A stretch of 47,880 nt of DNA from an archaeon (GTDB lineage Archaea > Nanobdellota > Nanobdellia > SCGC-AAA011-G17 > GW2011-AR17): the NCBI GenBank assembly GCA_018656555.1, contig JABHZQ010000017.1, forward strand, positions 1 through 47,880. The letters run 5' to 3'. Shown here piece after piece: positions 3,978 through 47,853 of this stretch. The position numbers were made by a program, and so were the translations under genes. Every line of letters begins with the position of its first letter. Within the stretch, counting starts at the first letter, position 1. The notes under the pieces are model-generated. The model saw only the letters and a list, made by a program, of their open reading frames with translations. It made no database searches and was not told the DNA's origin.

Positions 3978-3996
3978 GTAACTACTATTTAGTAGT
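3978..3996 (-). promoter_or_regulatory. TAGTAGTTAC motif, palindromic copy
   Basis: On the minus strand it reads ACTACTAAATAGTAGTTAC. Its first 16 bases are a perfect inverted repeat with 7-bp arms (ACTACTA/TAGTAGT). It falls close to the expected transcription start, about 20 nt downstream of the TATA box, a placement typical of a repressor operator. Related copies are listed at 6338, 19313, 26686, 31776, 33306 and 47819. Confidence 0.5.
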
Positions 3997-4136
3997 ATCT
4001 TCAGGTATATAAATGTTTCGTTTTGGCTTATATATGGTGTATAAGGCCTGAAATGGCCATATTTTAGGGTTAAAATTACATATTTTATATATTTTATTAG
4101 GGTTTAGTCCTTATAATTGGGTTCTTTTGGAGTATT

Positions 4137-4598
4137 ATGGAAAAAGACAGAATAATACTATCTCTATTAAGAGAGGACGCAAGGATCAGTTTGACTAAGA
4201 TGAGTAGAAAAACTAAGATTCCAGTTTCTACACTTTATGAGAGGATAAGGAAGAGTAAGTATATTAAAAAACATACTTCATTACTGGATTTTGAGAGACT
4301 TGGATATGGGGCAAGGGCTAAGGTATTGTTTAAAGTGGATAGGAAAGATCGGGAGGCTTTGAGAGAATTTCTTTGTAAGTGTCAGTTTATTAATGAGTTA
4401 ATTAGGGTGAATAATGGGTATGATTTTTTGGTTGAATTTGTGTTTGAGCAGATGAGAGGTTTGGAGAATTATTTAGAGATTTTGGAGAAGAGATTTAATA
4501 TTAAGGATAATAAGGTGTTTTACATTGTTGATGAGTTAAAAAGGGAGAACTTTTTGAGTAATCATAATGTAGAAAAGATGGGTAAACCTTTTAAATAA
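4137..4598 (+). CDS. Lrp/AsnC-family-like transcriptional regulator
   Basis: Residues 1-50 form an AsnC-type helix-turn-helix: a DRIILSLLREDARIS opening, then a recognition helix around VSTLYERIRK. The rest, to residue 153, resembles the RAM effector domain of Lrp proteins in length and strand pattern but is divergent. A TATA box (TTATAATT near 4111) lies 26 nt before the ATG, giving a leaderless message. Lrp-like proteins usually bind inverted repeats near their own or adjacent promoters, and a perfect 16-bp inverted repeat sits in the divergent promoter next door. That pairing is inference. It is separated by only 19 nt from the HAD gene downstream. Confidence 0.8.
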   Translation: MEKDRIILSLLREDARISLTKMSRKTKIPVSTLYERIRKSKYIKKHTSLLDFERLGYGARAKVLFKVDRKDREALREFLCKCQFINELIRVNNGYDFLVEFVFEQMRGLENYLEILEKRFNIKDNKVFYIVDELKRENFLSNHNVEKMGKPFK

Positions 4599-4617
4599 TT
4601 TATTTTTGTGTTGGGTT

Positions 4618-5448
4618 ATGAGTTATTTACCTGAAGAGAGACAGATATTTAATAATAATAGATCTAGGCAAGAGGTTGTGTCTGTTTATGATACAGATAC
4701 TCTTGTAGGGCGGTTGCATGATTATGCTTCTCCTGATTCCTTGATAGTTTATGATATTGATGGGACATTAAGACCTTCGACTGCAAAGTATCTTGTTCTT
4801 TCTAATTTGACTAATCCTGCAAGATGGAAGAATTGGGTTAAAAGTGAAGGTTTGCTTGAGAGAATGACTTGGCCTTTTGATATGGCTTGGGTTTCTATGG
4901 TTGCATTCGGTATGAATTGGGATTGGAATATTATTGAAGAGTTTTGCTTAAATTATGCTGAATCATTTGTTTTAGATAAATTTGATGATGATGAAAGAAA
5001 ACAAGTAATGGAAAATAGTTCTACTCCGTTTTATCCTGGTGCAAGAGAGGTTGTTGATCTATATTCTGAAGCTCAAAGGATATTGGTATCAAGAACTTTT
5101 GAAGAATTAGTGGAGCAAACAAGAGAACAGTTAGGAATGGAGGAAGGGTTACATAGGGTTGAGGAGAAAGCTGAAACAGTTTTAGGTTTAGTTCAGGAAA
5201 GAGGGGTTAATAGGGTTCTACTTTTTGGTGATTTAGAAATTGATTTGCAAATTGCAGGATTGCTTAAAGATAGGGGAATTGATTATGATATGGTTCTTGT
5301 GAATAAACAATTTGATTATAAGAGATTTGATGATAGGGCAACTATATTCATCCCTAGAAATTGGAGAGGATTGTTGGAAATGCTAAGGGGTGAAACTTAT
5401 AAACAAATGACTGTTTCTGGATTCCATGGAAAAGTGCTGGTTCGGTAG
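4618..5448 (+). CDS. HAD-superfamily phosphatase
   Basis: The four HAD motifs are visible in order: VYDIDGTL (motif I, nucleophile Asp), VSRT (motif II), the Lys of EEKAETV (motif III) and GDLEID (motif IV). A helical cap of about 90 residues between motifs I and II is rich in Trp. The protein has 276 residues from the ATG used; a TTG four codons earlier is possible. The substrate is unknown. Its last 23 nt overlap the start of the radical SAM gene, so the two are probably translated together and may serve one pathway. Confidence 0.8.
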   Translation: MSYLPEERQIFNNNRSRQEVVSVYDTDTLVGRLHDYASPDSLIVYDIDGTLRPSTAKYLVLSNLTNPARWKNWVKSEGLLERMTWPFDMAWVSMVAFGMNWDWNIIEEFCLNYAESFVLDKFDDDERKQVMENSSTPFYPGAREVVDLYSEAQRILVSRTFEELVEQTREQLGMEEGLHRVEEKAETVLGLVQERGVNRVLLFGDLEIDLQIAGLLKDRGIDYDMVLVNKQFDYKRFDDRATIFIPRNWRGLLEMLRGETYKQMTVSGFHGKVLVR

Positions 5449-6346
5449 ATGTATATTTATTTCATGGTATTGTGATGTAGGTACTTGTAAGTTTTGTTAT
5501 AGAAGTACTCAGAAAAGTAGAATTAAACATGCTAAACATGCTAGAAGAACTAAAGAAAGTATGATTGTTGAAGCCATCTTAGCTAAGAATCTTGGATGGA
5601 GGATTGAGTTCTTAACTGGAGGGTATAAGATCTACCCTATTGAGGAATTGGTTGATATTGCTAAGATAATATCTAAAGTGTATGGGGAGAAGATTTGGCT
5701 TAATCTTGGAGCTTTGAAAAAAGAAGAGCTGGAATTGTTTAAACCTTATGTCAAAGGGGTTGTTGCTTCTATTGAAACAGTTAATCCTGAGTTGCATAAA
5801 ACTATTTGTCCTGATAAAAATATTGAAGATTATGAAGAGATGTTAAAAATTGAGGGATTTATGAAGAGTATGACTATTGTTGTGGGATTGGGGGAGAAAA
5901 GGGAAGATTTTCCTTTGTTAAAAGAATTTATTCAAAAGTATAAATTAGATCGAATTACTTTCTATGCATTAAAACCAGTTCCTGGAACTCCTTATGAAGA
6001 AGGTCCAAGTACTGAGGATTATTGTTATTGGATTAGTGAGACTAGAAAGGCCTTTCCCGAGTTAGAAATTATTGCAGGGACTACTGCTAGAAGGGTTGGA
6101 GAGGTTTCAAAAGTGTTAGAAGCAGGTGCTAATGCTATTACTAAGTTTCCAGCCACTAAAAAGTTTAATTCTGAGGAAGCAAGAGTTTTAGAAGCAGAGG
6201 TTGCAAAGGCTGGAAGGGAATTTGTCAGTACTTTGACTAAATTGCCAGATATTGACTGGGCAAAAGAAGTGGATAAATTAGATATTGAAAACAAAGAAGA
6301 AGTGAAGAAGAAATTGTTTTTATATTTGGATAAGATGAGTACTTGA
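5426..6346 (+). CDS. radical SAM enzyme with CX4CX2C cluster motif
   Basis: A cysteine cluster opens the protein at Cys16, Cys21 and Cys24 (CDVGTCKFCY). The standard radical SAM spacing is CX3CX2C, so this is an uncommon variant. The following 250 residues have the alternating strand-helix pattern of a partial TIM barrel, with FLTGG shortly after the cluster and a BioB/lipoyl synthase-like flavour (ALKPVPGTPYE). At 306 residues it is about BioB size. It would bind a 4Fe-4S cluster and cleave SAM; the product is unknown. It overlaps the HAD phosphatase by 23 nt, and its last codons run into the promoter motif of the next operon. Confidence 0.8.
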   Translation: MEKCWFGRCIFISWYCDVGTCKFCYRSTQKSRIKHAKHARRTKESMIVEAILAKNLGWRIEFLTGGYKIYPIEELVDIAKIISKVYGEKIWLNLGALKKEELELFKPYVKGVVASIETVNPELHKTICPDKNIEDYEEMLKIEGFMKSMTIVVGLGEKREDFPLLKEFIQKYKLDRITFYALKPVPGTPYEEGPSTEDYCYWISETRKAFPELEIIAGTTARRVGEVSKVLEAGANAITKFPATKKFNSEEARVLEAEVAKAGREFVSTLTKLPDIDWAKEVDKLDIENKEEVKKKLFLYLDKMST

Positions 6347-6374
6347 TAGTGGTTACAAAATAGAAAGATTTATA
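6338..6374 (+). promoter_or_regulatory. TAGTAGTTAC-type promoter of a two-gene operon
   Basis: AGTACTTGATAGTGGTTAC is followed directly by AAAATAGAAAG (BRE-like) and TTTATA. The last 28 bases match the promoter at 26695-26722 at 27 positions. The left part lies inside the 3' end of the radical SAM gene. The start codon is about 50 nt after the TATA box, with a GAGGT ribosome binding site. Confidence 0.6.
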
Positions 6375-6424
6375 AGTTAATAAAACTCTGTCAAAGTATT
6401 GAAAATTATGAGGTATAATAAAAA

Positions 6425-7042
6425 ATGAATGATAGAAGACTTATATTTACAATAACAATGTTACCAGAAATTCTAACTGAAGCAGAACAAAATTCTACTT
6501 TTGAAATTCCAGAAGCAGACAGAGAGTTAATACTTGGTCAGGATCATAGAACTCTTCTTGCATATTTAAGCATCCAAGTTCCTAGGGGAGATAGTAGAAC
6601 TTACCAACACTTTAGTGATAGCCTTACTAGAGAGCAGGTAGAATTTTTAGAAAGTTTAAGGGAAAGGACTTCCTCAGGATATTATAAATTAGATGTTAAT
6701 GGAAGAAATGTTGAACTAGATGCAAAAGTAGCAGAGCACTTAGAAGAAAGACTTGTATGTGATGCTGAAGCAATTTATGCAGTTAGCCCTGTGGATGGTA
6801 GAGAACATCCTTTGATGTATCCAGGAGAGGTTCCAGTTCAGGAAAAAATTCTTGGAGGAGAAAGGGTTGAAGGAGTTGTTGTTCAAGATGAATTTTGGCC
6901 AATAAAAAGAAAACAATACTCCCTAGTTAGAACAGAATTTGATGTTAGTGATGAAGAAATAAATAGATTTGAACCTTTTTTGTATTCAGAAATTAAGGTC
7001 GCTAGAAAATCATTTTCAGAAGTAATGGGAGAACAAAGATGA
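6425..7042 (+). CDS. hypothetical protein, first gene of unknown operon
   Basis: This 205-residue soluble protein matches no family I recognise. It is acidic and uses arginine far more than lysine (7 lysines), unlike the lysine-rich housekeeping proteins around it. A possible ribosome binding site (GAGGT) precedes the ATG. Its stop overlaps the start of the next gene as ATGA, so the two are co-translated. The operon sits behind a promoter shared with other unknown genes of this window. Function unknown. Confidence 0.75.
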   Translation: MNDRRLIFTITMLPEILTEAEQNSTFEIPEADRELILGQDHRTLLAYLSIQVPRGDSRTYQHFSDSLTREQVEFLESLRERTSSGYYKLDVNGRNVELDAKVAEHLEERLVCDAEAIYAVSPVDGREHPLMYPGEVPVQEKILGGERVEGVVVQDEFWPIKRKQYSLVRTEFDVSDEEINRFEPFLYSEIKVARKSFSEVMGEQR

Positions 7043-7884
7043 ATAGATTTACTAATTTAATGCATTTAGCTTTGATGGGCCTAATGGTACCACCAAGAGA
7101 TGCTTATGAAGAATTACCAGACGTACAACCAATTACTAATACATTAGGACCGGGTGAAGGACCGATCAAGGAATCAAACTTAGAAATATATATGGTTCCT
7201 TTGGATTCAAGACTTGAGAGATTAGATGTACTTGAAGAGTTAACTAGTGGATTCATACCTGAAGATCCAGCATACTTCATATTATTGAGCCAGATGTTTG
7301 AAAATGGTTCAAGTGATACAAATATGTATGTTCCTCAAGCTATAGCTGCATTTGAAGGAGTACCTGAAGAGGTTATTAGGAATTCTTTAGAAAGAGACTA
7401 CTTAGCAGGTCAATTAGCACTTGATGGAGAATCAGTTTATACAATTAAAGATCTTTTAACATATGCTGCTAGTGAACCTGATTTAATGTATGATCCTAGT
7501 GAACAGGAAATAAATAGAATGTTTAGAGATGATGAATTATCTAATGTTTTAGATAATCAAGATATACCTTATCAAGCTAGACAGAGAACAATGGGTGATT
7601 TTGGAGAAGGAGAATGGGTAGATAGAGATACTCTTTTTGATAACTCTACTGCAACAGGTCCTACTTTGGGAATAACACCTGGCAATCTGGGATATAGTGG
7701 ATTTAGAAATATGGGTCCTGGAGTTGAAGGAGGATGGATTGCAGCAGGTCTTATTTTTGGAGAAAGTCAGGATGAAGCAGATTTAGGTTATGAAATTCAA
7801 CCCATTACACCAGAGCAAGAAGCTGATTTATTAGAATTATTTGGAGATTTGTTTGAGAGGTATCAGCCTCTTAATCGAAAATAA
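7039..7884 (+). CDS. hypothetical acidic protein, second gene of unknown operon
   Basis: This 281-residue protein has only 3 lysines against 14 arginines and a large excess of Asp and Glu, which is extreme for this window. A short hydrophobic N-terminus (NLMHLALMGLM) is too weak to call a signal peptide. The C-terminal third is glycine-rich (around GPTLGITPGNLGYSG). No domain is recognised. It is coupled to the upstream gene by an ATGA overlap and followed by a T-rich tract and a new promoter, so the operon has two genes. Confidence 0.75.
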   Translation: MNRFTNLMHLALMGLMVPPRDAYEELPDVQPITNTLGPGEGPIKESNLEIYMVPLDSRLERLDVLEELTSGFIPEDPAYFILLSQMFENGSSDTNMYVPQAIAAFEGVPEEVIRNSLERDYLAGQLALDGESVYTIKDLLTYAASEPDLMYDPSEQEINRMFRDDELSNVLDNQDIPYQARQRTMGDFGEGEWVDRDTLFDNSTATGPTLGITPGNLGYSGFRNMGPGVEGGWIAAGLIFGESQDEADLGYEIQPITPEQEADLLELFGDLFERYQPLNRK

Positions 7885-7885
7885 A

Positions 7886-7900
7886 TTTTTCTTTTTTTCT
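7886..7900 (+). terminator. T-tract terminator
   Basis: A run of 13 T in 15 bases directly follows the stop codon, as in intrinsic archaeal termination. The next promoter begins a few bases later (TATA about 7905-7915). Confidence 0.4.
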
Positions 7901-7935
7901 AAACTTTTATAAATATAATAACTCTTAACCACTGT

Positions 7936-9801: not shown

Positions 9802-9861
9802 TATTTAACTACCGAAGAGAAACACTCCTATACGAGATATGAGTAGTGAATCATAAAAAAG

Positions 9862-9912
9862 CTTATAAATTCACATAATTCTACTTTTTTCAGTCAATTA
9901 ATAAGGGAGGGG
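9862..9912 (+). promoter_or_regulatory. promoter and strong Shine-Dalgarno of the membrane-ATPase operon
   Basis: TTATAAAT near 9863 predicts a start around 9890. A strong ribosome binding site GGAGGGGG (about 9907-9913) follows. No ATG or GTG lies at a suitable distance; the in-frame codon at proper spacing is ATT at 9919. Confidence 0.5.
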
Positions 9913-9918
9913 GATAAA

Positions 9919-10134
9919 ATTATCTGGAAAATAATATTAATAATAATCGGAGTTATTGTCCTATATATGATAGGGTACTACATTGTTAAAGACAGTGCTA
10001 ACAAGTTCTATAGAAAAGCTAGAAAGGCACACAAGAGAGGCCAAAAAGCATACAAAGATGGATTTTATGATTTAGCTGACGAACTGTATGAAAGAGCAGA
10101 AGAGTTCAGGAAGAGAGCTCGGGAGTTGGAATAA
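9919..10134 (+). CDS. small single-span membrane protein with probable AUU start
   Basis: An open frame of 71 codons encodes a hydrophobic segment (WKIILIIIGVIVLYMIGYY) followed by a basic amphipathic tail rich in Lys, Arg and Tyr (KAHKRGQKAYKDG). It ends one base before the ATG of the AAA ATPase gene. No standard start codon precedes the membrane span; ATT sits 6-7 nt after a strong GGAGGGGG. An internal ATG at 9967 would remove the membrane segment. A non-standard start therefore fits best, as known for infC in bacteria. It may anchor the two ATPases encoded next; this is inference from adjacency. Confidence 0.6.
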   Translation: MIWKIILIIIGVIVLYMIGYYIVKDSANKFYRKARKAHKRGQKAYKDGFYDLADELYERAEEFRKRARELE

Positions 10135-10135
10135 A

Positions 10136-11769: not shown

Positions 11770-11804
11770 TTAGTTTTTTAAATTTCCATTATTTCTTTTA
11801 TTTT

Positions 11805-12311: not shown

Positions 12312-12337
12312 AAAGGGTGGAAATTTTTTGAATCTAC

Positions 12338-12535: not shown

Positions 12536-12561
12536 ATACAACTTTTATTTCTAACTTTTAA

Positions 12562-18455: not shown

Positions 18456-19313
18456 ATGCATACGATACTTGATGCTATTGGAAACACTCCTATGTTGAGT
18501 ATTCAAGGAGTTAAGGTAAAATTAGAGTATATGAATCCTTCTGGTTCTATTAAAGATAGAATTGCTAAGCATATTATTGAGAGAGCTGAGAAGAGTAAGT
18601 TGTTGAAGCGAGGTTATAGGGTGGTTGAGGCAACTAGTGGTAATTCTGGAATTGCTTTTTCTATGGTCTGTGCAGTAAAGGGTTATGAGATGGTTGTTAT
18701 TATGCCCAAAGGTTTGAGTAGGGAGCGAAAGAAGATTATGAGATACTTTGGGGCTAAGATTATTGAAGTTCCAAGATGGAAGGGTGTGAAGGGTGCTGTG
18801 GCAAGAGAGGAAAAGTATAATAAAAAATGTTATTGTGTTAAACAGTTTGAGAACAGGTGGAATATTGAAGCCCATTATAAAACTGGAAAAGAGATATTAG
18901 AGAAAGGAAGAGTAGATGCTTTTGTTGCTGGTGTTGGAACTGGCGGTTCTTTGATTGGAATTGGCAAGGTTTTGAAGAAAAAGTATCCTAAATGTAAGGT
19001 TTATGCTTTAGAACCTGAAGAATGTTCACCTATGACTGGAAGTAGTTGTGGTAAACATGGGATTGAAGGTATTGGTGATGGTTTTATTCCAAAAATAATT
19101 CAGGATAATGATAAAATAATTGATGGAGTTCTTACTGTTAAGACAAAAGATGCAGTTAAAATGAGTAAAAAGTTGGCTAAGAAGGGATTCTTTGTTGGGA
19201 TAAGTTCTGGAGCTAATTTTCTTGGTGCTTTAAGAGTTAAAAGAATGCATAAGAATGTTGTAACTCTTTTCCCTGATTCTGGAGATAGGTATTTGAGTGA
19301 ATTATTTAAGTAA
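18456..19313 (+). CDS. cysK: cysteine synthase / cystathionine beta-synthase family PLP enzyme
   Basis: The PLP lysine is Lys33 in NPSGSIKDR. The substrate loop TSGNSG, the phosphate-binding GVGTGGS and the ISSGAN motif near the C-terminus are all present. At 285 residues it is slightly shorter than typical CysK (about 310). It makes cysteine from O-acetylserine or O-phosphoserine and sulfide; which donor is used cannot be read here. The second ATG is chosen because the TATA box (CTTATAAAG, 18434-18442) lies almost against the first one at 18444. Confidence 0.85.
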   Translation: MHTILDAIGNTPMLSIQGVKVKLEYMNPSGSIKDRIAKHIIERAEKSKLLKRGYRVVEATSGNSGIAFSMVCAVKGYEMVVIMPKGLSRERKKIMRYFGAKIIEVPRWKGVKGAVAREEKYNKKCYCVKQFENRWNIEAHYKTGKEILEKGRVDAFVAGVGTGGSLIGIGKVLKKKYPKCKVYALEPEECSPMTGSSCGKHGIEGIGDGFIPKIIQDNDKIIDGVLTVKTKDAVKMSKKLAKKGFFVGISSGANFLGALRVKRMHKNVVTLFPDSGDRYLSELFK

Positions 19314-19348
19314 CTATTCTATAGTAATTACAAATAGGAAGACTTATA
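19313..19348 (+). promoter_or_regulatory. TAGTAGTTAC-type promoter of a TIM-barrel gene
   Basis: ACTATTCTATAGTAATTAC is followed by AAATAGGAAGAC and TTATA. It starts at the stop codon of cysK and ends 24 nt before the ATG at 19373. The 19-base motif agrees with the copy at 3978-3996 at 15 positions. Confidence 0.55.
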
Positions 19349-19372
19349 AGTTTGTTTTACTTAGATAATAAT

Positions 19373-20206
19373 ATGGAAATTAGTCTTTGTGTGGAATATC
19401 CAGAAGAAGGTTTAGATAAATTACACCATGTCGATTTTCCAGTAGATTTAGTTGTAGCTGGGAAGAGTATGGAGGAGTTTGATGGATGGAGAGCTCAAAT
19501 AGATCATGATTCTGTTCAAAGAGTGGGTTATTGGCCAACTTTGTCTAGGGAAGAAGGATACTGGTTGTCTACACTTGCTAGTCCAAGAGGATTAGATAGA
19601 GTTCTTGGAGAATTAGGAGAGAGGAATTCAGAAGATGACCAATTACTTTTGTTATGGGATGCTGAGTTACCACACCAAAATCCATTGTTAGTTTTTAAGA
19701 ATGCTATTTATCATTTCAAAAATAGGAAAAAACTGGATAAATTTTTAAGAAATCATAAAGAACATAGTCTTGACATTGCTGCTGCACAGTTTCCAACACG
19801 AACTTGGCCTTTTCCTTTAAATTTAGTTGCTTCCAAACCAGTTTTAGAAGCTACGATGACTCATTTGGATCCTGTTGAATATGATCTTGAAGCAGTTTTT
19901 ACTATGGGGTATACTAGTTTTGGTGAGTTTGAAGATCCAATTAATAGTTTTTTATTGGGTGGATTTAATCCTAGAAATCTTATAGATGAAGCAGGGTTAG
20001 GTGTTAAGAATTATAGAGATAGATTTGGTCTTGCTCTTGGAACAATAGCTGTTGGTGAGATGGGAAATGAACCAATATTAACTCCAAAAAAATTGAATAG
20101 GGATTTATCAATTGCAAGATTAATGGGTGTTAAAAAAGTTGCAATATATAGGCTTGGCGGGATGACTGATGAGTATGCAGCTGCTATAAAGGAAGCTTGT
20201 CTTTAA
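19373..20206 (+). CDS. predicted TIM-barrel protein of unknown function
   Basis: The 277 residues show eight evenly spaced hydrophobic strands (for example EISLCVEY, DLVVAG, QRVGYWP, LLLLWDAEL, FGLALGT, KKVAIYRLGG) separated by helices, which suggests a beta/alpha barrel. WDAELP with its acidic pair at a strand end is glycoside-hydrolase-like, but no family is identified. The ATG is chosen at leaderless distance from the TATA box; a TTG seven codons upstream is less likely. The promoter has the shared motif of other unknown genes here. Confidence 0.65.
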   Translation: MEISLCVEYPEEGLDKLHHVDFPVDLVVAGKSMEEFDGWRAQIDHDSVQRVGYWPTLSREEGYWLSTLASPRGLDRVLGELGERNSEDDQLLLLWDAELPHQNPLLVFKNAIYHFKNRKKLDKFLRNHKEHSLDIAAAQFPTRTWPFPLNLVASKPVLEATMTHLDPVEYDLEAVFTMGYTSFGEFEDPINSFLLGGFNPRNLIDEAGLGVKNYRDRFGLALGTIAVGEMGNEPILTPKKLNRDLSIARLMGVKKVAIYRLGGMTDEYAAAIKEACL

Positions 20207-26571: not shown

Positions 26572-26685
26572 TTTAGACTTTCCCCTCTCTATAATTTTAT
26601 TAATATAAAAGGATGAATATTTATAAATTTTACTATATGTGAAAATAAATTTAAATTATTAGTATATTAGAGAATTTTTACTGTT

Positions 26686-26722
26686 GTTCTTTGTTAGTAG
26701 TTACAAAATAGAAAGATTTATA
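26686..26722 (+). promoter_or_regulatory. TAGTAGTTAC-type promoter of the caspase-like gene
   Basis: TAGTAGTTAC followed by AAAATAGAAAGA and TTTATA, nearly identical to the promoter at 6347-6374 (27 of 28). The ATG lies about 28 nt after the TATA box. The rest of the 178-bp gap holds the divergent promoter (ATTTATAAATATT on the minus strand) and AT-rich sequence without further structure. Confidence 0.6.
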
Positions 26723-26749
26723 TATGATTAATTATAGTATTTTAATAAA

Positions 26750-27940
26750 ATGTTAGAAGATTTTTTAAAAAATGCTGGAATTGAACAAGTTACTGATTTA
26801 CATCCTTCTTCAAATAGAATTTTCTCTCAAAGAGCTTTGGATTATTACTGGTTAGAAACAGTTGTAACACCTATGTTCGAGATTTTTGGTGAGAAAGCTG
26901 ATGCAAGTACAACTAAGAAAGGAAAAGTGGGTTATATTATTGCTCAAGGGCTTACTACTGCTGCAGGTGTTGTTCCTTATGTGGGTGCGGAAGTAGCATC
27001 AAGAGTTACTGAAAGTGGATTGAGAGGAGTTGGAAGACTTGCTAAGTTTGTTGCTGGAAAAATTTATGACCAACTGAACAAAACAGATAATGAAAGCTTA
27101 CGAGTTGTTGATGATTTAATTCATGCTTATGAAAGTGCTAAAGCTGAGTTTGGAAATAAATTAGAACCTAGAGGTAGGTGGAGATGGGATTTAGCAAAAG
27201 ATATTGGAATGGTTTCTTTATCTTTGATTCTTGCTACTAGTGCTGTTATTAAAACTGGAGAGATTATTATTGGAGATGGTGGAGAGGATGATAGAAGAGG
27301 ATCTCAAGTTGAACCTCGTGAACCATATCCTCCACAACAATTACCTCCTCCAGTTGTTTTTGAACCAGAACCAATTCCATTAGCTGATTTAGATGAGTTT
27401 AATCAACAAAAAGTTTTGATTTACTGTGCTAATGATGGAGAAAAACAATATGCTTTAGATTCATTAAGAGAAAGAAGTAGATTAAGAAGTGCAAGTAAAA
27501 AGATGAATTTTAGAAATGTTGGTGGAGGAGTAACAAAAGTTACTTACAGAGGAGCTGGAGATGTTCCTATTGAAATGCATGTAGTTACTTCTACTAATGG
27601 TATTCCTGATAATGATTATAGTGTTGTTCAAGTAAGAGGGCATACCTGGGATATGGCACCTTTAGCTGGAGAGGTTAATGGGCATACTGATGACCATGTG
27701 ATTTACTTCTTTGGTGGTTGTAATTCAAATGGTTTAGCAGCTGGTTTAGCTGATGAGAATACTGCTGTAATTGGTGGAGATGGTATTCAAAATGGGGCAA
27801 GTAATGGATATTTATTAGTTAGAATGCTTGATGAGATGGGTAGAACTGATGAATGGAGTACTTTAAGAGCTAATATTCAAGCTCAATCTCAGGTTGCTGG
27901 AACCTTTACCTGGCCTGGTGATTCTAATTATGTTCGGTAG
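26750..27940 (+). CDS. membrane protein with possible caspase-like (clan CD) C-terminal domain
   Basis: Two hydrophobic stretches (about 65-85 and 150-180) lie in the N-terminal half, then an acidic proline-rich linker (about 180-215). The C-terminal domain begins with a strand and continues to VVQVRGHTWDM, and about 25 residues later VIYFFGGCNSNGLA. A His after a strand and a Cys after a following strand, with small residues around them, are the hallmark of clan CD cysteine peptidases and related CHAT or gingipain folds. No such annotation can be confirmed by eye. The promoter carries the shared motif. Function unknown. Confidence 0.6.
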   Translation: MLEDFLKNAGIEQVTDLHPSSNRIFSQRALDYYWLETVVTPMFEIFGEKADASTTKKGKVGYIIAQGLTTAAGVVPYVGAEVASRVTESGLRGVGRLAKFVAGKIYDQLNKTDNESLRVVDDLIHAYESAKAEFGNKLEPRGRWRWDLAKDIGMVSLSLILATSAVIKTGEIIIGDGGEDDRRGSQVEPREPYPPQQLPPPVVFEPEPIPLADLDEFNQQKVLIYCANDGEKQYALDSLRERSRLRSASKKMNFRNVGGGVTKVTYRGAGDVPIEMHVVTSTNGIPDNDYSVVQVRGHTWDMAPLAGEVNGHTDDHVIYFFGGCNSNGLAAGLADENTAVIGGDGIQNGASNGYLLVRMLDEMGRTDEWSTLRANIQAQSQVAGTFTWPGDSNYVR

Positions 27941-27975: not shown

Positions 27976-29685
27976 ATGGATATTGAGACTTTGAGGCATA
28001 GTGCTGCACATTTATTAGCACAAGCTGTTAAGGAATTGTTTCCTGATGTTAAGTTGGGAATAGGTCCAGCTATTGAGAAGGGTTTCTATTATGATTTTCA
28101 AAAGGATGAACCATTTACTCCTGAAGACTTGAAAAAGATTGAGAAAAAGATGAAAGCTTTGTCTCATCAGAAGTTAACTATAGAACAGGTTTCAATGAGT
28201 GATGATGATTTAGAAGATTATTATAGAAAAGAATCTTTTAAGAAAGAATTAGCTGAAGAGTTAGATAAACCTATTTTCTTTAAACAAGGAAATTTTATTG
28301 ATCTTTGTAAAGGACCTCATGTTGAGGATACTGGTAAGATTAAAAATTATAAATTAATGAAAGTTTCTGGTGCTTATTGGAAGGGGGATGCTTCTAATCA
28401 ACAATTACAAAGAATTTATGGTGTTATTTTCGAGACTAAAGAAGAATTAAAAGAATATTTACATATGTTAGAAGAGGCAGAGAAAAGAAATCATATTAAA
28501 TTAGGTAAAGAGTTAGGATTGTATTCTTTCCATAAGGAAGGCCCAGGTTTTCCATTTATGCATCCAAAAGGAATGATCTTCTGGAATGAGATTATGAAAC
28601 TTTGGAAAGAGAAGCATGATGATTATGAATATGTGGAAATAAGAACTCCTATTATTTTGAATAAAGAATTATGGGTTAAGTCTGGACATTGGGAAAATTA
28701 TAGAGATAATATGTATGAAACCAAGATCGATAAGGATGAAGTTGCGATTAAACCAATGAACTGTCCGGGTGGAATCTTATGGTATAATGAGAGATTACAT
28801 TCTTATAGAGAGTTTCCAATGAGGGTTGCCGAGATTGGTTTGGTTCATCGTCATGAATTATCTGGAGTATTGAATGGAATGTTTAGAGTTAGGGCCTTTC
28901 ATCAAGATGATGCCCATATTTATATGACTAAAACTCAGATTCAAAAGGAAGTTTTGAATGTTTTGAAATTAACTGATGAACTTTATAGTGCATTTGGTTT
29001 GAAATATCATTTAGAATTATCTACTAGACCTGAAAAAAGAATTGGTAAGGATAAAGATTGGGATCTTTCTGAGAAAGCATTAAAGAAAGCTTTAGAAAAA
29101 TATGGAATGAAATATGATTTGAATGAAGGAGATGGTGCTTTTTATGGTCCTAAGATTGATGTACATATTAAGGATGCTTTGGGAAGGACTTGGCAGTGTG
29201 CTACAATACAATTGGATATGAATTTACCTGAAAGGTTTGATATGACTTTTGAAGGTAAAGATGGTAAGAAACATAGACCAATTATGATTCACAGAACTAT
29301 TTATGGTGGAGTGGAAAGGTTTGTAGGTATAATCGTTGAACACTTCGGAGGTAAATTTCCATTGTGGTTGAGTCCTGTTCAAGTTAGAATCTTAAATGTT
29401 ACTGATCGGAATTTGAAGTTTGCAAGAGCTATTGCAAAAAAAATGAAGAAAAAAGGAATTAGAGCAGAAGTTGATGATAGAGCTGAGACCATTTCAAAGA
29501 AAGTTAGAAGTGCTCAAGTAGAAAAGGTTCCCATTATGGTCACAATTGGTGATAAGGAAGAGGAGAATAAGACTTTAGCTGTTAGGACTAGAGATGGTAA
29601 ATTAAAATTTGGTGTTGAATCTAATGATCTAATGAAAAAAATGGTGAAGAATATAAAAGATAGGGAGTTGGAGTTTTCATGTTAG
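27976..29685 (+). CDS. thrS: threonyl-tRNA synthetase, bacterial type lacking TGS
   Basis: The protein begins directly with the N2 editing domain (His8 and His12 in RHSAAH; CKGPH near 110), the version found in bacterial and eukaryotic ThrRS; typical archaeal ThrRS has an unrelated editing domain. The TGS domain usually in front, of about 60 residues, is absent. The class II core shows MNCPGG, VHRHELSGVLNG and AFHQDDAH, and the anticodon domain ends the 569 residues. It charges tRNA-Thr. A TATA-like CTTAAATAG is 31 nt before the ATG. The start of the next gene overlaps its end by 7 nt. Confidence 0.95.
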   Translation: MDIETLRHSAAHLLAQAVKELFPDVKLGIGPAIEKGFYYDFQKDEPFTPEDLKKIEKKMKALSHQKLTIEQVSMSDDDLEDYYRKESFKKELAEELDKPIFFKQGNFIDLCKGPHVEDTGKIKNYKLMKVSGAYWKGDASNQQLQRIYGVIFETKEELKEYLHMLEEAEKRNHIKLGKELGLYSFHKEGPGFPFMHPKGMIFWNEIMKLWKEKHDDYEYVEIRTPIILNKELWVKSGHWENYRDNMYETKIDKDEVAIKPMNCPGGILWYNERLHSYREFPMRVAEIGLVHRHELSGVLNGMFRVRAFHQDDAHIYMTKTQIQKEVLNVLKLTDELYSAFGLKYHLELSTRPEKRIGKDKDWDLSEKALKKALEKYGMKYDLNEGDGAFYGPKIDVHIKDALGRTWQCATIQLDMNLPERFDMTFEGKDGKKHRPIMIHRTIYGGVERFVGIIVEHFGGKFPLWLSPVQVRILNVTDRNLKFARAIAKKMKKKGIRAEVDDRAETISKKVRSAQVEKVPIMVTIGDKEEENKTLAVRTRDGKLKFGVESNDLMKKMVKNIKDRELEFSC

Positions 29686-30776: not shown

Positions 30777-31013
30777 ATGAAATTAGATCCAAAAGCTATG
30801 GCTTATACCTTTTCTATCTTTGGAGGTTTTTGGACTTTTGTTATTGCGTTCTTAGGACAGTTTGGTTTTGAGGATTTGGTTGCAATTTGTAACCCTTTTT
30901 ACTTTTTTGACTTGAGTACTTGGTTAGGTGTGTTCTTAGGAACAATAGAAGCTTTAGTGTTTTGGTTGTTAATTGGTTATGTTTTTGCTTGGTTATATAA
31001 TAAATTTATTTAG
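30777..31013 (+). CDS. hypothetical small membrane protein
   Basis: The 78 residues include two membrane spans (about 12-31 and 48-73) rich in Phe and Trp. Similar two-span proteins occur in small archaea and candidate bacteria without known function. It has its own leaderless promoter and overlaps the convergent dphB gene by 21 nt. Confidence 0.6.
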   Translation: MKLDPKAMAYTFSIFGGFWTFVIAFLGQFGFEDLVAICNPFYFFDLSTWLGVFLGTIEALVFWLLIGYVFAWLYNKFI

Positions 31014-31727
31014 AAATTCTTCTTCTACAAAGTGCAAGTTACCCGGAATAATTAAACATTGAGGATAAAGGTTTAGATTCTTTACATTCTTAGCTTCAGT
31101 GTATAGAATTGTAGGTTTACCACCTAGTTGTGCACAGACAACTACCTTTGTGTCAGGAGTTATTACATTCTCTTTTCTTTTAGCTTCTATGTTTAGTAAG
31201 AAATCAATAGCTTCTTTTGCTTCCATAAACTTATCTTCTTTGGGTGTGAGATCTAGTAAACATAAGGTATGTAATGGTTTATTGTCTTTAATCACATTAT
31301 AAGGAGTTTCTACATTTTCATTGTGGAAAGGAATTGAGGTTGTTTTTCCATATTTGTAAAGTTCTAAACCAATAATTCCTACTGCTGTCAATACAGATGC
31401 ATTGTTTATGATGTTTATTTGGATATTATTTTCTTTTGCTTGTTGTAAAAGTGATAAATGAGTGGTTGCTGAGAAAGGATCTCCTATGATTAAAAGAGAT
31501 ACATTAGATTCTTTTGCTTGTTTGATTATTTCTTTGCCATCTTCTACGAATTCTCTTTCTGCTAGAATTATTTTCTTATTGTATAGTGTTTCTAGGTTTG
31601 TTATTGGTACTTGTAGTTTAGAGGTGTAGTTTTCTAGGTAAATGTAGTCTGAAGCTTGTACTAATTCTAAGCCTTTTACTGTGATGTCTTTTTCATCATT
31701 TAATCCTATTCCAATGATATTTAGCAT
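30993..31727 (-). CDS. dphB: diphthine synthase
   Basis: The first strand IGIGLNDEKDITVKGL, the YLENYTS segment and the SAM-binding GDPFSATTH are typical of the tetrapyrrole-methylase-fold diphthine synthase. The 244 residues fit the family (about 255). It methylates the modified histidine of elongation factor 2 on the way to diphthamide. The start MLNIIG is chosen because of the family N-terminus and a TATA box 30 nt upstream; a longer frame would cross into the divergent gene's promoter. Confidence 0.9.
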   Translation of the reverse strand: MLNIIGIGLNDEKDITVKGLELVQASDYIYLENYTSKLQVPITNLETLYNKKIILAEREFVEDGKEIIKQAKESNVSLLIIGDPFSATTHLSLLQQAKENNIQINIINNASVLTAVGIIGLELYKYGKTTSIPFHNENVETPYNVIKDNKPLHTLCLLDLTPKEDKFMEAKEAIDFLLNIEAKRKENVITPDTKVVVCAQLGGKPTILYTEAKNVKNLNLYPQCLIIPGNLHFVEEEFLNKFII

Positions 31728-31775
31728 GATTTTACTGAATTTGGGAGGTTTATAAAGGTTTTTGTTATCTTTTTC

Positions 31776-31795
31776 TAGTAGTAAAATATATAAAC
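31776..31795 (+). promoter_or_regulatory. TAGTAGT element fused to TATA box
   Basis: TAGTAGT is followed immediately by AAAATATATAAA, so the motif abuts the TATA box here. The ATG at 31818 is 31 nt after the TATA. It is the weakest member of the motif set. Confidence 0.4.
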
Positions 31796-31817
31796 AAGTT
31801 AATTGAACAAAAAGATT

Positions 31818-32558
31818 ATGGTAAAAGTTATGGCTCAAAGGGAAGCTGAATTTTATGATCAATTAAAGGCATTAGGGACTCAGCTGGATTTAGGTGGTTT
31901 GATGAAGTGGTTTGATAGTTATACTGCTTTTTTTAAAGATTGTATGATAAATGGTGCATTAGCTCCTTATGAAATGGGAAATCAAAGTATGTTAGCTGCT
32001 GCAAGAGAAATGCATAAATCAATTGGGAATTTTGTGGAAGGTCGAGAATCAATGCCTTCTGGAGGAATTATACTTCAACCAATTATCTTAAGTTCCCAAA
32101 GTCTTACTCCAACCAAATTATCATTTAGAATTGAAAGAGCTAGAATACCTACTGCTTATGGGTTGGTGGGGGGAAAGATTGGAGAATTTATTGCTCAAGA
32201 TGCTCTTTTCCAAGGTCTTAAATCTGGAGTTGAAAGAGTTATTGATTTTGAGGTAAGACCAGATGAGGATTTAGGGGTAGCTGTATACCAACCACAAGGA
32301 GTTCTAATTATACAAGAGAAAGATGCCCTAAGATCTTATAGGGCTTTTAGGTTTAGAGATATGGGAAGTGGAATGAATTTAGAAGGTTTGGGTAGTACTT
32401 ATGATTTAGAGTCTGCACTTGGGGGATATGGTAATTCTCTTGCTTTGAATGAGTCTTTGGTTATTGTTAAAGGTGGAGAACATTGGCCTTTAGAAGAGAC
32501 TGCTTTACCTGTTGCAGTAAAGATGTATGGTTCTAGAATTGGTGAATGGGTTGAATAG
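31818..32558 (+). CDS. hypothetical protein, first gene of unknown operon
   Basis: The 246 residues begin MVKVMAQREAEFYDQL and include a helical part followed by a beta-rich half with many Gly-Gly turns (SGGIILQPII, LVGGKIGEF). No domain is recognised. Starts at TTG 31803, ATG 31818 and ATG 31830 are all possible; 31818 fits the TATA spacing best. Only 4 nt separate its stop from the next gene. Confidence 0.65.
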   Translation: MVKVMAQREAEFYDQLKALGTQLDLGGLMKWFDSYTAFFKDCMINGALAPYEMGNQSMLAAAREMHKSIGNFVEGRESMPSGGIILQPIILSSQSLTPTKLSFRIERARIPTAYGLVGGKIGEFIAQDALFQGLKSGVERVIDFEVRPDEDLGVAVYQPQGVLIIQEKDALRSYRAFRFRDMGSGMNLEGLGSTYDLESALGGYGNSLALNESLVIVKGGEHWPLEETALPVAVKMYGSRIGEWVE

Positions 32559-33300: not shown

Positions 33301-33305
33301 TTGTT

Positions 33306-33340
33306 GCCATTTTACAGTAGTTACAAAACCAGAATGATTT
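33306..33340 (+). promoter_or_regulatory. TAGTAGTTAC-type promoter with decayed TATA
   Basis: CAGTAGTTACAAAA is followed by CCAGAATGATTTAC where other copies have AGAAAGATTTATA. The TATA box is thus altered. A 28-codon frame starts 14 nt later. The other 80 nt up to the exosome operon carry that operon's own promoter (TTATAAATAA near 33451). Confidence 0.4.
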
Positions 33341-33440: not shown

Positions 33441-33491
33441 TCCAAAAGCCTTATAAATAATAATTAATTATAGTCCTTCTGTAAAGAGAAA

Positions 33492-34579: not shown

Positions 34580-34580
34580 A

Positions 34581-37676: not shown

Positions 37677-37679
37677 AAA

Positions 37680-39952: not shown

Positions 39953-39974
39953 GAGATGAATAAAAAATTACCCC

Positions 39975-44348: not shown

Positions 44349-44524
44349 TTTATATAGTGTAGTTTTGCTTTTCCTACTGGTCTGATTCTAATCTTTTTTG
44401 CGCCTTTTAATTCAGCTAGAACTATAGGTATTGTATTTCTTGAGACTTTTAGAGCCCTAGCTATTTCTTGGACTGTAAGCCCGTCTCTATTCTCTTTTAG
44501 AAGTTTTAGTACCCTTTTTTTCAT
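44345..44524 (-). CDS. 59-residue winged-helix regulator
   Basis: The product MKKRVLKLLKENRDGLT continues with VQEIARALKVSRNTI, a helix-turn-helix of the small archaeal winged-helix type, and ends in a wing-like basic strand (KKIRIRPVGKAKLHYIK). It overlaps the giant adhesin gene by 4 nt as ATGA. A TATA box is about 50 nt upstream and an array of TAATGC repeats with palindromes lies between. It probably represses its own operon and so the adhesin. Confidence 0.75.
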   Translation of the reverse strand: MKKRVLKLLKENRDGLTVQEIARALKVSRNTIPIVLAELKGAKKIRIRPVGKAKLHYIK

Positions 44525-44525
44525 T

Positions 44526-44565
44526 GTGCATTAATGCTTAACTTTAATGCTATGCAATAATGCAC
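44526..44565 (-). promoter_or_regulatory. operator array of TAATGC repeats
   Basis: On the plus strand TAATGC occurs at 44532, 44545 and 44558, spaced exactly 13 bp. GTGCATTA (44526-44533) and TAATGCAC (44558-44565) form an inverted repeat, and GCATTAATGC is a perfect 10-bp palindrome. The TATA box of the minus-strand operon (CTTATAAAT) lies just beyond, near 44571-44579. Confidence 0.6.
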
Positions 44566-44588
44566 TGATATTTATAAGAGTTTCTATC

Positions 44589-44843
44589 TTAGTATACTTG
44601 ACTGTCATGCTTTAATGGCAGATTACAACAGCTAAAACAAATGTATTGGGCTGTTCTTTCTTGAGTGATTATATGATATCCTAAGATTTTATCTCCACAA
44701 GATGAACACCACTGAGAGCTTTGGAATTTATCTTCATATCCAATCCTTAAGCCTTGTTCATCAACAGGAATTTTGGATAGAAAAGCCATTAATACCTTGC
44801 TTGCTATTCCACCTAATTGTTCAGTCTCAAGGGCACTATCCAT
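44589..44843 (-). CDS. small zinc-ribbon protein
   Basis: The 84 residues have a helical N-terminus and four cysteines as two CxxC pairs (WCSSCGD and ICFSCC), fitting a zinc ribbon. No family is recognised. Its start overlaps the end of sucC by 8 nt, so they are probably translated together. The C-terminal part is polar. A role with SucC is not evident. Confidence 0.6.
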   Translation of the reverse strand: MDSALETEQLGGIASKVLMAFLSKIPVDEQGLRIGYEDKFQSSQWCSSCGDKILGYHIITQERTAQYICFSCCNLPLKHDSQVY

Positions 44844-45807
44844 TTACTATCTCCTTTGCACACTCTTCCATAGAGTCAAAGGCTTTTAGGTTATTTTCAT
44901 TTAGAATTCTTCTTCCTTCTTCTTGGTTTGTTCCAACCATCCTTATTACAGTAGGAATTTGTATGTTTTTATTTACAATTGCTTTTGCAACTTCATCGCA
45001 TCTTGAGATGCCTGCGAATATGTTTATGAATAGCTTTTTTACATTTGAATTACTTAGTACTTGGTCTATTGCTTGTTCAACAACTTCAGTACTTGATCCT
45101 CCTCCCACATCTAAGAAGTTTGCTGGTTTTCCTCCAAAATGAGCAAGAGTATCTAATGTTGCCATGACTAATCCCGCACCATTTCCAATAACTCCTATGT
45201 CTCCATCTAGTTCTACATAGTTTCCCCCTTCTTTTTCTCCTTTGAAGGATTGTCTGAATAAAGCATTATCATCTATGATTATTTTTGAGTCTGCTGCGAA
45301 TAATTTGTGGTTACTTAAGATTAGAGGATTTATTTCTACTAGGATAGCATCTTTGTCTTTTGCTATTTGTATTAGTTTTTTGAATAGGGCTTGTTTTCCA
45401 TGACAGATTTTATTTTCTATTTCTTGGTAAGAACCTTTGATTATATCTTCTTTAGGTACTGATTCTATGTCAATTCCTCCTTTTTTAGAAGTAATACAAA
45501 GATAGTCCTTAGTGTTTCTGTCTAGAGTTACACTCAGATAATGTTCTTCTTCAATCTCTATTGCTTCTTCAATTAGAACTTCTTTTACTTGTTCTCCTTT
45601 TATGTTTAAAGAAAGCACTTTGTTTGTTATTTCTTGTATGTTTTCTTTGTTAGCTTTTAGAATTCCACCAGCCTTTCCCCTTCCCCCAACTAGAACTTGA
45701 GCTTTTACTATGACATCTTGGTCTACTTCTTCTATTTGGAATTGTTTGGGGATAGAGATCTCATACTCTTTGAATATCTGCTTTCCTTGTGATTCGGTCA
45801 GTTTCAT
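44836..45807 (-). CDS. sucC: succinyl-CoA synthetase beta subunit-like (SucC), shortened
   Basis: The ATP-grasp and flavodoxin-like halves are present: VIVKAQVLVGGRGKAGGI, ILVEINPL, GNGAGLVMATLD, ANFLDVGGGS and INIFAGISRCDEVAKAI. At 323 residues it is shorter than usual (360-390), with about 20 residues missing between the first strand and VKAQ and others in the ATP-grasp lid. With SucD it would form an ADP-forming acyl-CoA synthetase. It has its own short promoter region upstream. Confidence 0.9.
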   Translation of the reverse strand: MKLTESQGKQIFKEYEISIPKQFQIEEVDQDVIVKAQVLVGGRGKAGGILKANKENIQEITNKVLSLNIKGEQVKEVLIEEAIEIEEEHYLSVTLDRNTKDYLCITSKKGGIDIESVPKEDIIKGSYQEIENKICHGKQALFKKLIQIAKDKDAILVEINPLILSNHKLFAADSKIIIDDNALFRQSFKGEKEGGNYVELDGDIGVIGNGAGLVMATLDTLAHFGGKPANFLDVGGGSSTEVVEQAIDQVLSNSNVKKLFINIFAGISRCDEVAKAIVNKNIQIPTVIRMVGTNQEEGRRILNENNLKAFDSMEECAKEIVNG

Positions 45808-45918
45808 ATGGTTGAAGAAATTAGTTTGATTTATATGTTTTATTGAAAATATTTCAATTTTTTATGCTAAACTCTTATTAAAGGGGTTTTATACAGTATA
45901 GTAAGACTTAAATAGTAA

Positions 45919-45934
45919 GTAAGATTAATCTTAC
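45919..45934 (+). promoter_or_regulatory. perfect palindrome, toxin-antitoxin operator
   Basis: GTAAGATTAATCTTAC is a perfect 16-bp palindrome, 2 nt before the antitoxin ATG and 4-13 nt after the TATA-like CTTAAATAG. It overlaps the transcription start, as expected for antitoxin autorepression. Confidence 0.65.
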
Positions 45935-45936
45935 CT

Positions 45937-46209
45937 ATGGATATCGCAACAACAAAAATGAGTTCAAAAGGACAGATTGTCATTCCAGTGGAAATGAGAG
46001 AAGGCATTAAAGAAGGAGAGAAATTAGTAATTATTAGAAATAATAATCAGATAATTATAGAAAAAGTAGACCAGATTAGAAAAAGTTTAGAGAAAGATAT
46101 TGCAAGGGCTAAGAAAGTTGATAAATTAGTTCAAAACTATGAAACTGGTAAAGGAAAATGGGTTGAAATGGAATTTGATGATTTTGTTGAAGAGATGAAA
46201 AAATGGTGA
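45937..46209 (+). CDS. AbrB/SpoVT-type antitoxin
   Basis: The N-terminal 45 residues form the swapped-hairpin AbrB domain: MSSKGQIVIPVEMREGI is the family signature and IIEKV the last strand. The C-terminal half is a charged helix ending in a Trp-containing acidic segment, typical for binding a toxin. The overlapping start of the RelE-like gene and the operator palindrome support a toxin-antitoxin operon. Confidence 0.85.
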   Translation: MDIATTKMSSKGQIVIPVEMREGIKEGEKLVIIRNNNQIIIEKVDQIRKSLEKDIARAKKVDKLVQNYETGKGKWVEMEFDDFVEEMKKW

Positions 46210-46445
46210 TTGTTGCCTTTGAAGAAAACTTCAAGAAAAAAATTTCTAAACTTAAAGATAAAACAATCAAAGAAAAAATTATTAAACAAATTACAAAAAT
46301 AAAAAATAATCCAAATATTGGAAAACCCATGAAATTCTCTAGAAAAGGAACAAGAGAAATATACATTTCTCCATTTAGATTAGTATACAAATATGTTGAA
46401 GAGAAGGTAATAATCATTGATATTTATCACAAAGATGATCAATAA
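46203..46445 (+). CDS. RelE/ParE-superfamily toxin
   Basis: The 80 residues follow the RelE layout: two helices with basic residues (FKKKISKLKDK, QITKIKNNPNIGKPMKF), then strands REIYISPFRLVYKY and VIIIDIYHKDD. The Arg in FRLVY and the His near the end are in the positions used by RelE-type ribonucleases. It overlaps the antitoxin gene by 7 nt, so both are made together. Confidence 0.85.
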   Translation: MVIVAFEENFKKKISKLKDKTIKEKIIKQITKIKNNPNIGKPMKFSRKGTREIYISPFRLVYKYVEEKVIIIDIYHKDDQ

Positions 46446-46458
46446 AAAAGAAAAAAAG

Positions 46459-47130
46459 TTATAGGCTTTTTCTGTAATCTCCGATAATTCTACCAATATC
46501 TGCTACAATTCTGCCAAGGTTATAAACATTAACAACTCTGGGTACTTCATCTAACTCAATATACTTCATATCGTGTGCAACTGTTCCATGAGCTCTATCT
46601 CCTCCACCAAAAAGATTTAATGTACTTGTGTCTATAACTAATCCATAAGCACCGGTTTCTATTTCTGACCTTAAATCAGATGTTACAACTACTTCTTCAC
46701 CAAACAAGGTGTGGACTACTTTAGTTAAACCATTTTTTCCTGCCTCATCTCGAGGGTAATAGATCAAGACTTCTCCATCTTTTTTTAATGGGGCTTTGTT
46801 AACTACTTGACCAACCAATGCTCCAATTTCAGGTTTATCTAAAACTTCAGCACCTAAAGATTCTGCCCTTTCTTTAACGCCTGTTTCATAGGCATTACCA
46901 GTCCAAAGTATTTTTCTGACTTCTAGATCTTGTAATTCATCTAAAACTCTATAACCTTCTTCTCCACCAGGTGTATAATTCAAATCAGTGATAACTAAGT
47001 CATAGTCTCTTGCTCTTGCAATAACTTCATCGGGATTATCAACAAAGTCAATTTCTGCATTAGGGATGTAAGGAAAATTTCTCCTAGCATGGATTAAATT
47101 GTCATCCCCAACTAAAATTTTTTCTATCAT
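46459..47130 (-). CDS. receiver-domain response regulator-like protein
   Basis: The N-terminal receiver domain is complete: Asp9-Asp10, phosphoacceptor Asp49 in VITDL, Thr77 in WTGN and Lys99-Pro100. Residues 110-223 form a second alpha/beta region (VLIYYPRDEAG, GLVIDTSTLNLFGGG) without known output domain. Its ATG follows the stop of the beta-barrel-like gene by one base, with a GGGGAAA site upstream. No histidine kinase is in the window, so its input is unknown. Confidence 0.8.
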   Translation of the reverse strand: MIEKILVGDDNLIHARRNFPYIPNAEIDFVDNPDEVIARARDYDLVITDLNYTPGGEEGYRVLDELQDLEVRKILWTGNAYETGVKERAESLGAEVLDKPEIGALVGQVVNKAPLKKDGEVLIYYPRDEAGKNGLTKVVHTLFGEEVVVTSDLRSEIETGAYGLVIDTSTLNLFGGGDRAHGTVAHDMKYIELDEVPRVVNVYNLGRIVADIGRIIGDYRKSL

Positions 47131-47131
47131 T

Positions 47132-47800
47132 TTAAAATTTCCCCTGTACATATGGTCCTGCAACTACATCAACTACAGTTACTCCATCTACATTGATCTC
47201 TCTTACATTCACACCTGCACCAGCTTCAAAATGGTCATCACCCAAACCTAATCTTACTTTTTGGTGTGCGTAACTTGGTCCTTCTAGACCTACATCTAAC
47301 AAAGCCTCTGCATCAACACTTAAGTCAACTTTACCTAAGTCCTTACTGTAACTTGCAGTTCCAAATAGCTCAACTAAAGCTCCACTATCTAGATCAGCCG
47401 GATTCATTTCCATTGTTGCTACACCATATAGACTTACTGGACCTGCTCCACCATATGCTTGTAGTCCAACTCTTGGGCTAGCAAAACCACCTGTAGCTGA
47501 AAACTGTCCTTCAAGTACTGCATCTCCATTTGGTCCTAGATTGTATGTTAAGTCTAAGATTTCAAAATCACTCAATGCAACACCATCTGCACCATAGCTT
47601 AGATCCACTAGACTTCTTCCAAATAATCCAAAACCTTCACCTAGGTCTACCATTATTTTTCCATCTAATCCGGTTGATTTATGTGTCCCCATTAATTCTA
47701 CACTACCAGATACTGGGATTTCTGGTGTTTCTTCTGCTCTTACAGTACCCGCGCTTAACATAGCAGCTAATACTCCAGCAGCAATTATTGTTTTTTTCAT
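47132..47800 (-). CDS. exported beta-barrel-like protein
   Basis: A clear Sec signal peptide with an AxA-type site (AGTVRA) precedes about 200 residues of alternating hydrophobic and polar positions with many glycine turns. About ten amphipathic strands can be drawn, and the last residue is Phe (AGPYVQGKF), like the C-terminal signal of bacterial outer-membrane proteins. There is no membrane span to anchor it. Lysine is scarce. The ribosome site GGAGGAG is strong. It is co-transcribed with a receiver-domain gene. A secreted beta-sandwich is an alternative. Confidence 0.7.
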   Translation of the reverse strand: MKKTIIAAGVLAAMLSAGTVRAEETPEIPVSGSVELMGTHKSTGLDGKIMVDLGEGFGLFGRSLVDLSYGADGVALSDFEILDLTYNLGPNGDAVLEGQFSATGGFASPRVGLQAYGGAGPVSLYGVATMEMNPADLDSGALVELFGTASYSKDLGKVDLSVDAEALLDVGLEGPSYAHQKVRLGLGDDHFEAGAGVNVREINVDGVTVVDVVAGPYVQGKF

Positions 47801-47818
47801 TTTCTTTACTCCTCCTTT

Positions 47819-47853
47819 GTTACTACTATAGAATGGTTTTAGCTATTTAAATC
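47819..47853 (-). promoter_or_regulatory. TAGTAGTAAC motif and TATA of the beta-barrel operon
   Basis: On the minus strand GATTTAAATAG is the TATA box. ACCATTCTATAGTAGTAAC follows near the expected start, agreeing at 16 of 19 positions with the copy at 19313. A CCCC-TTGA-GGGG inverted repeat lies just upstream (about 47859-47871). Confidence 0.5.

Follow-up and report, generated by a model that had tools for sequence, protein, structure and literature searches.

The motif that recurs at promoters along the 47,880-nucleotide stretch of archaeal DNA analysed here (the window; contig C21 of a Woesearchaeota genome of 1.08 Mb in 26 contigs, G000) is a real, class-wide element: a 24-bp inverted repeat with the consensus TGTARYWAYT-N4-AGTAGTWACA, which occupies two fixed positions relative to TATA, is conserved among relatives, is strongly biased towards genes for arginine-rich proteins and is present in promoters of TrmB-family genes. 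We suggest, with a probability of about two in three, that it is the predicted binding site of a dimeric, autoregulatory and position-dependent factor, most likely a TrmB-family (TrmBL2-like) winged-helix protein. The palindrome, the candidate regulator and the arginine-rich gene class go beyond an earlier note on this DNA, which had listed motif copies at six or seven promoters and proposed a common regulator. Stretches of ∼660 kb (61% of the genome) were sampled and complemented by pattern and model searches of the whole genome; genes were called with a simple ORF picker on that 61%, the genomes are MAGs, and score thresholds were set by eye, after looking.

The motif of the earlier note turned out to be the right half of the repeat. 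Its left half, at positions -14 to -5, emerged unsought when 105 sites were aligned, and it is this second half that identifies the element as a 24-bp inverted repeat. A direct GTARTWAC repeat, 14 bp apart, had been our first reading and was given up in view of the overlap of sites on the two strands and their service to divergent promoters. Each half-site holds a TACT/AGTA core, and noncoding TACT-N4-AGTA stands out in this DNA, as do the same palindromes read as N7. The motif positions were recovered as noted, with 7 matches at up to 3 mismatches where shuffling predicts 0.29 (none of 100 shuffles reached 7), two of the matches being the palindromes at 3978 and 19313 read on the other strand; the identity of 27/28 bases between 6347-6374 and 26695-26722 was likewise reproduced. 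Genome-wide, a 19-mer searched at up to 2 mismatches yielded 6 matches and its reversed control 0, and one of the six, the copy on contig C23, is a contig overlap of the site at 47819. With 6 palindromes in 48 kb versus 31 in 612 kb sampled elsewhere the window is ∼2.5-fold enriched, and, since palindromes are thus also found outside it, it is not their sole location.

Four sites had been described as lying upstream of BRE, which holds for three of them. At 6334-6376 (+), an upstream, activator-type element (6334-6357, with a poor left half) is followed by BRE and TATA (composite score 36.9; E=1.3e-9 with R1, a sequence model trained on relatives only) and drives genes 6425-7042 and 7039-7884 (+), which form a two-gene operon (6425-7884) for arginine-rich proteins without family (R/(R+K) 0.72 and 0.82; no Pfam or NCBIfam match). 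The upstream element at 19309-19348 (+; element proper 19309-19332, palindrome score 21.5, TATA offset +22, R1 E=8e-4) has a spacer one base shorter and CTTATA as its TATA, and drives 19352-20206 (+), a gene likely leaderless from the ATG at 19373 whose product has no Pfam or NCBIfam match. At 26682-26724 (+), an element (26682-26705) with BRE and TATA (composite score 46.6; R1 E=3.5e-9) drives 26750-27940 (+), encoding a protein without match in Pfam, NCBIfam or PHROG. The fourth site, noted at 33306, departs from this pattern: the full element at 33302-33325 (+) scores second best in the sample (29.1) and lacks a recognisable BRE or TATA in register, with TTTACT at the expected TATA position and no clear gene behind, and is possibly a remnant. 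It lies upstream of an RNase P/proteasome/exosome operon (genes recognised by eye from translations) that has a separate TATA, CTTATAAA, near 33450. The copy called partial at 31776 is indeed weak; it occupies 31763-31786, reads on the minus strand with a score of 15.5 and a TATA offset of -20 and on the plus strand with an element score of 12.2, and stands between the divergent genes 30993-31862 (-) and 31803-32558 (+).

Both sites placed downstream of TATA in the earlier note, 3978 and 47819, are start-site (operator-type) palindromes. The former, 3977-4000 (-; score 20.6, TATA offset -25), lies between TATA (4008-4013) and the Shine-Dalgarno sequence of gene 3288-3965 (-), which encodes a 225-aa protein without Pfam match; the latter, 47818-47841 (-; score 17.4, TATA offset -22), lies between the TATA box TTTAAA and the Shine-Dalgarno sequence of gene 47132-47800, the first of an operon (46459-47800, -) encoding a strand-rich protein with signal peptide and then an arginine-rich protein, without Pfam or NCBIfam match. 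The 3977-type operator was also found in 5 other genomes of the same family, again 24-25 bp downstream of TATA, with the gene divergent from an Lrp gene beginning 22-30 nt beyond it. The proteins encoded under it are similar in length (206-214 aa in the relatives, 225 aa here), and neither BLASTP nor phmmer detected significant similarity between the 3288-3965 protein and its counterparts, so that at this locus operator and gene position are better kept than the protein. As a separate observation, the products of 47132-47800 and of L088:16838-18043 have signal peptides, many predicted strands and no family, and look like small β-barrels, which would be unusual for an archaeon; a single-sequence AlphaFold model of the former is strand-only and of low confidence (pLDDT 37), too poor to judge.

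Across the sample, the palindrome centre lies 21-23 bp before the first T of TATA, just upstream of BRE, in the main group of sites, and 20-25 bp after TATA (peak 22), over the predicted start site, in a second group. As scored with a half-site matrix that includes this genome's sites, the palindrome-TATA offsets peak at +21 to +23 and at -22, with -24/-25 at the 3288-3977 promoters, and matches at -29 to -31 reflect the symmetric TTTATAAA being read in mirror orientation. There are 34 upstream versus 8 start-site strand-hits, some sites being counted on both strands. Genes of the upstream group are mostly leaderless, and a Shine-Dalgarno leader precedes several of the start-site group, among them 47132-47800 and 3288-3965. 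Six or seven palindromes sit between two divergent promoters at the correct distance from both, and the element hence works symmetrically. Two placements fixed relative to TATA are what the idea of a dual activator/repressor, put forward in the earlier note, predicts, and by analogy such a regulator is plausible. In this genome a gene for a surface-layer-like protein has both an upstream and a start-site element (L080:4130 and 4174), and surface-layer-like relatives in other families also carry the element (L050, L062, L063, L069, L189, L190).

The spread of the element was assessed with a composite matrix (element, BRE and TATA) and with model R1, both trained on relatives only, this genome being left out. 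A direct search for the composite itself found 14 sites in this genome and none in its reversed control; among 40 relatives, 36 had sites. In the sampled 660 kb, the relatives-trained matrix yielded 18 composites versus 0 reversed, 17 of the 18 within 100 nt of a start; composites are hence concentrated in promoters rather than spread evenly over coding and noncoding DNA. Model R1 has 25 matches in the whole genome at E≤1e-3, among them the one at 33306 without core promoter, and with the latter set aside some 24 promoters of this type are present. Nearly the whole order, 99 of 102 genomes, has matches to the sequence model; as the model spans BRE and TATA, counts at its weak end may take in some ordinary promoters. 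Within the order, 37 of 103 genomes have the composite 27-mer at no more than 1 mismatch, as do 90 of 371 genomes drawn from the phylum, all of one class, while its reversed pattern matches in none of the 103 or the 371; this genome has the most matches, 10.

The element is not a general promoter feature, since 254 aligned promoters show BRE and TATA only and nothing consistent upstream. The upstream palindrome is present in 15 of 306 leaderless promoters, and 14 of these belong to arginine-rich genes. When arginine-rich is defined as R/(R+K)≥0.5, the palindrome is found at 14/69 leaderless promoters of such genes versus 1/237 others (odds ratio 60, P=4e-9), and the sole exception shares its palindrome with a divergent arginine-rich gene. 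Relatives exhibit the same bias, motif genes being richer in arginine (0.40) than other genes at the same loci (0.26, P=2e-6). The statement of the earlier note that the downstream genes are almost all uncharacterised is borne out in the window, where the tested proteins directly behind elements have no Pfam match, and only in part elsewhere, where 5/10 motif genes have one, compared with 1/10 arginine-rich genes without motif and 7/10 lysine-rich genes; in terms of Pfam families, 109 motif genes yield 60 and 99 control genes 117. The earlier note had asked whether the downstream proteins form families: among 135 such proteins, no more than five small families recur and 118 proteins are singletons, so that no common pathway was found among the targets. 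Secretion as a common function was sought with a crude rule, which gave 22% versus a background of 20%, that is, the same. Independently of the motif, R/(R+K) of the genes in the sampled 660 kb forms a lysine-rich main peak at ∼0.28 with an arginine-rich shoulder from 0.5 to 0.9; compared with others, motif genes are higher in overall GC and lower in GC3.

The common regulator envisaged in the earlier note is, as judged from sequence, most likely a TrmBL2-like protein of the TrmB family. Both here (L087) and in a relative (L281), one of the genes behind the element belongs to the TrmB family. Of the 102 genomes of the order, 101 encode TrmB proteins, as a rule two; the pair of this genome is L087:4991-5794 and L022:3778-4602. 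With the same half-site matrix as above, 29/70 TrmB promoters score at least 10, versus 1/70 when reversed and 46/611 genes of this genome. About two dozen TrmB promoters have a site at the activator offset, a spacing found in most first-paralog sites, and many, chiefly those of the second paralog, are without a good site. Both paralogs exceed the gathering score of the TrmB winged-helix domain PF01978 (68.9 and 65.8 versus 25.6 bits), and the candidate (PF01978 E 3.5e-19) is closest to the TrmBL2 structure 5BPD (6.8e-22). Its recognition-helix Tyr-Asp pair (Y50, D51) is conserved in alignment with TrmBL2 and TrmB, and in TrmB this pair contacts DNA (PMC4158304). The recognition helix, VPRSR(S/A/T)YDVLE, is near-invariant across the order, as is expected if one binding site is kept. 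A C-terminal sugar-binding domain is present in TrmB and TrmBL1 and absent in TrmBL2 and TrmBL3; since the candidate has 267 aa and matches PF11495 only at profile positions 5-129 of 233, it is TrmBL2-like, devoid of that domain, and not a sugar-sensing TrmB.

We infer the following mode of action, including TrmB binding itself and the sign of each effect. The winged-helix protein, with about two copies per genome across the order, would bind the palindrome as a dimer. Bound just upstream of BRE, with its centre 21-23 bp before TATA, it would help TFB and TBP to assemble and might thus, by analogy, activate one of two divergent promoters or the pair; when positioned over the start site, with its centre 20-25 bp after the start of TATA, it would block RNA polymerase and thereby repress. 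Besides autoregulation, the protein would control about two dozen promoters of this genome, most of them belonging to genes for uncharacterised arginine-rich proteins.

It is rather unlikely, though the most serious of the other explanations, that another conserved transcription factor binds the element and that TrmB is merely one of its targets. A regulator gene can itself be a target, the site positions would suit any archaeal activator or repressor, and the TrmB candidate came from its promoter and not from binding; however, the half-site matches the core of the published TrmB operator, TACT...AGTA, both TrmB and the motif are near-universal, and the site is far more frequent at TrmB promoters than at other genes. 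We regard it as improbable that the element is a core-promoter enhancer, i.e. an extended BRE that marks strong promoters and is recognised by TFB/TBP or RNA polymerase. Its fixed spacing next to BRE and its presence in relatives at some highly expressed gene types (EF-1α at L184; surface-layer-like at L063, L189 and L190) would fit such a role, whereas its palindromic nature, its service to both sides of divergent promoters, its additional location downstream of TATA over the start site and its absence from nearly all other promoters would not.

The neighbouring Lrp/AsnC gene of the window, 4137-4598 (+; PF13404 2.1e-7), was considered and rejected. It is divergent from the perfect palindrome 3977-4000, which adjoins it, and is nevertheless very improbable as source of the regulator: an ortholog exists in only 49 of 102 genomes, and composite promoters remain numerous in genomes lacking it (e.g. 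21 in G018 and 18 in G027). Moreover, Lrp promoters outside the family are without the site; where a palindrome is present in the region (6 of 30 Lrp loci scored), it is tied to the start site of the divergent gene. Finally, a chance likeness of AT-rich promoter DNA, conceivable at a genomic GC content of 33%, or a repeat of mobile or viral origin has a practically negligible probability, given that reversed-control composites match 0 times in 103 and 371 genomes, that viral contigs contain 0 matches, that 8 arginine-rich proteins without family have no PHROG match, and that the downstream genes are unrelated.

The TrmB-family reading can be compared with known systems of Thermococcales. TrmBL1 of P. 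furiosus acts as an activator where it binds upstream of BRE and as a repressor where it binds downstream of TATA, and the targets of the TrmBL1/Tgr regulon are mainly genes of sugar and central metabolism (PMC4706686). That regulon shares with the present one a TrmB-family wHTH protein, a palindromic site, tens of promoters and both site placements. It differs in its half-site (TGM TATCAC-N5-GTGATA versus TGTARYWAYT-N4-AGTAGTWACA here), in its upstream sites at variable distance, up to 156 bp, versus one fixed register here, and in the share of upstream sites, 7/28 versus the majority here. The operator of P. furiosus TrmB at malE is TACT-N3-AGTA (PMC4158304); the TACT/AGTA half-site core and the recognition-helix Tyr-Asp are common to both, whereas the spacer is 3 there and 4 here, within a longer 24-bp consensus, and TrmB is a sugar-sensing repressor of 338 aa, compared with 267 aa for the candidate. 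TrmBL2 (P. furiosus PF0496, T. kodakarensis TK0471), with 5BPD the nearest solved structure along the entire length, is of the same size and likewise lacks a C-terminal sugar-binding part. However, TrmBL2 is a rather unspecific chromosomal protein (PMC4158304) that coats coding and intergenic DNA, whereas a specific palindrome is predicted here, and the candidate scores 87 bits, far below the TrmBL2 equivalog cut-off of 530. TFB-RF1 of P. furiosus activates promoters by recruiting TFB (PMC5937170), which resembles the action proposed here; it acts on weak BREs, those of the present promoters being near consensus.

The literature searched yielded no transcription factor described together with its site in Woesearchaeota or other DPANN archaea. 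These organisms are uncultured, with many uncharacterised genes, and a defined site with a named candidate provides a testable regulon; moreover, a promoter code in which a factor would activate from upstream of BRE and repress from over the start could be read across hundreds of genomes. The element's near-exclusive tie to orphan genes rich in arginine leads one to ask what they are and why they should share a single regulator. It is tempting, if somewhat doubtful, to speculate that a class-wide Nanoarchaeota regulator derived from TrmBL2 is dedicated to fast-evolving, arginine-rich orphan genes with a promoter type of their own, as an archaeal counterpart of the regulators of accessory genes, with one operator having been kept though its protein changed beyond recognition.

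Several further genes deserve mention. The 391-aa product of L037:272-1444 (-; contig C25, ∼124.1-125.3 kb), a gene under a shared palindrome and divergent from a methionyl-tRNA synthetase gene, combines region 4 of bacterial sigma-70 (9.7e-18) with the C-terminal domain of RNA polymerase alpha (5.4e-22). L016:16226-16894 (+; contig C10) encodes an arginine-rich 222-aa protein with sigma-70 region 2 (PF04542 2.6e-6) and weak full-length similarity to sigma factors, in an archaeal genome. In the window, the product of 44589-44843, of 84 aa, weakly resembles a Cas12f1-like/TnpB zinc-ribbon (TNB), scoring under the Pfam cut-off, and is likely a transposase fragment. Finally, 27976-29685 encodes the threonyl-tRNA synthetase that served for taxonomic placement; it is of bacterial type, and for it Firmicutes MAGs provide most of the best 80 matches and Woesearchaeota/Nanoarchaeota MAGs the very best.
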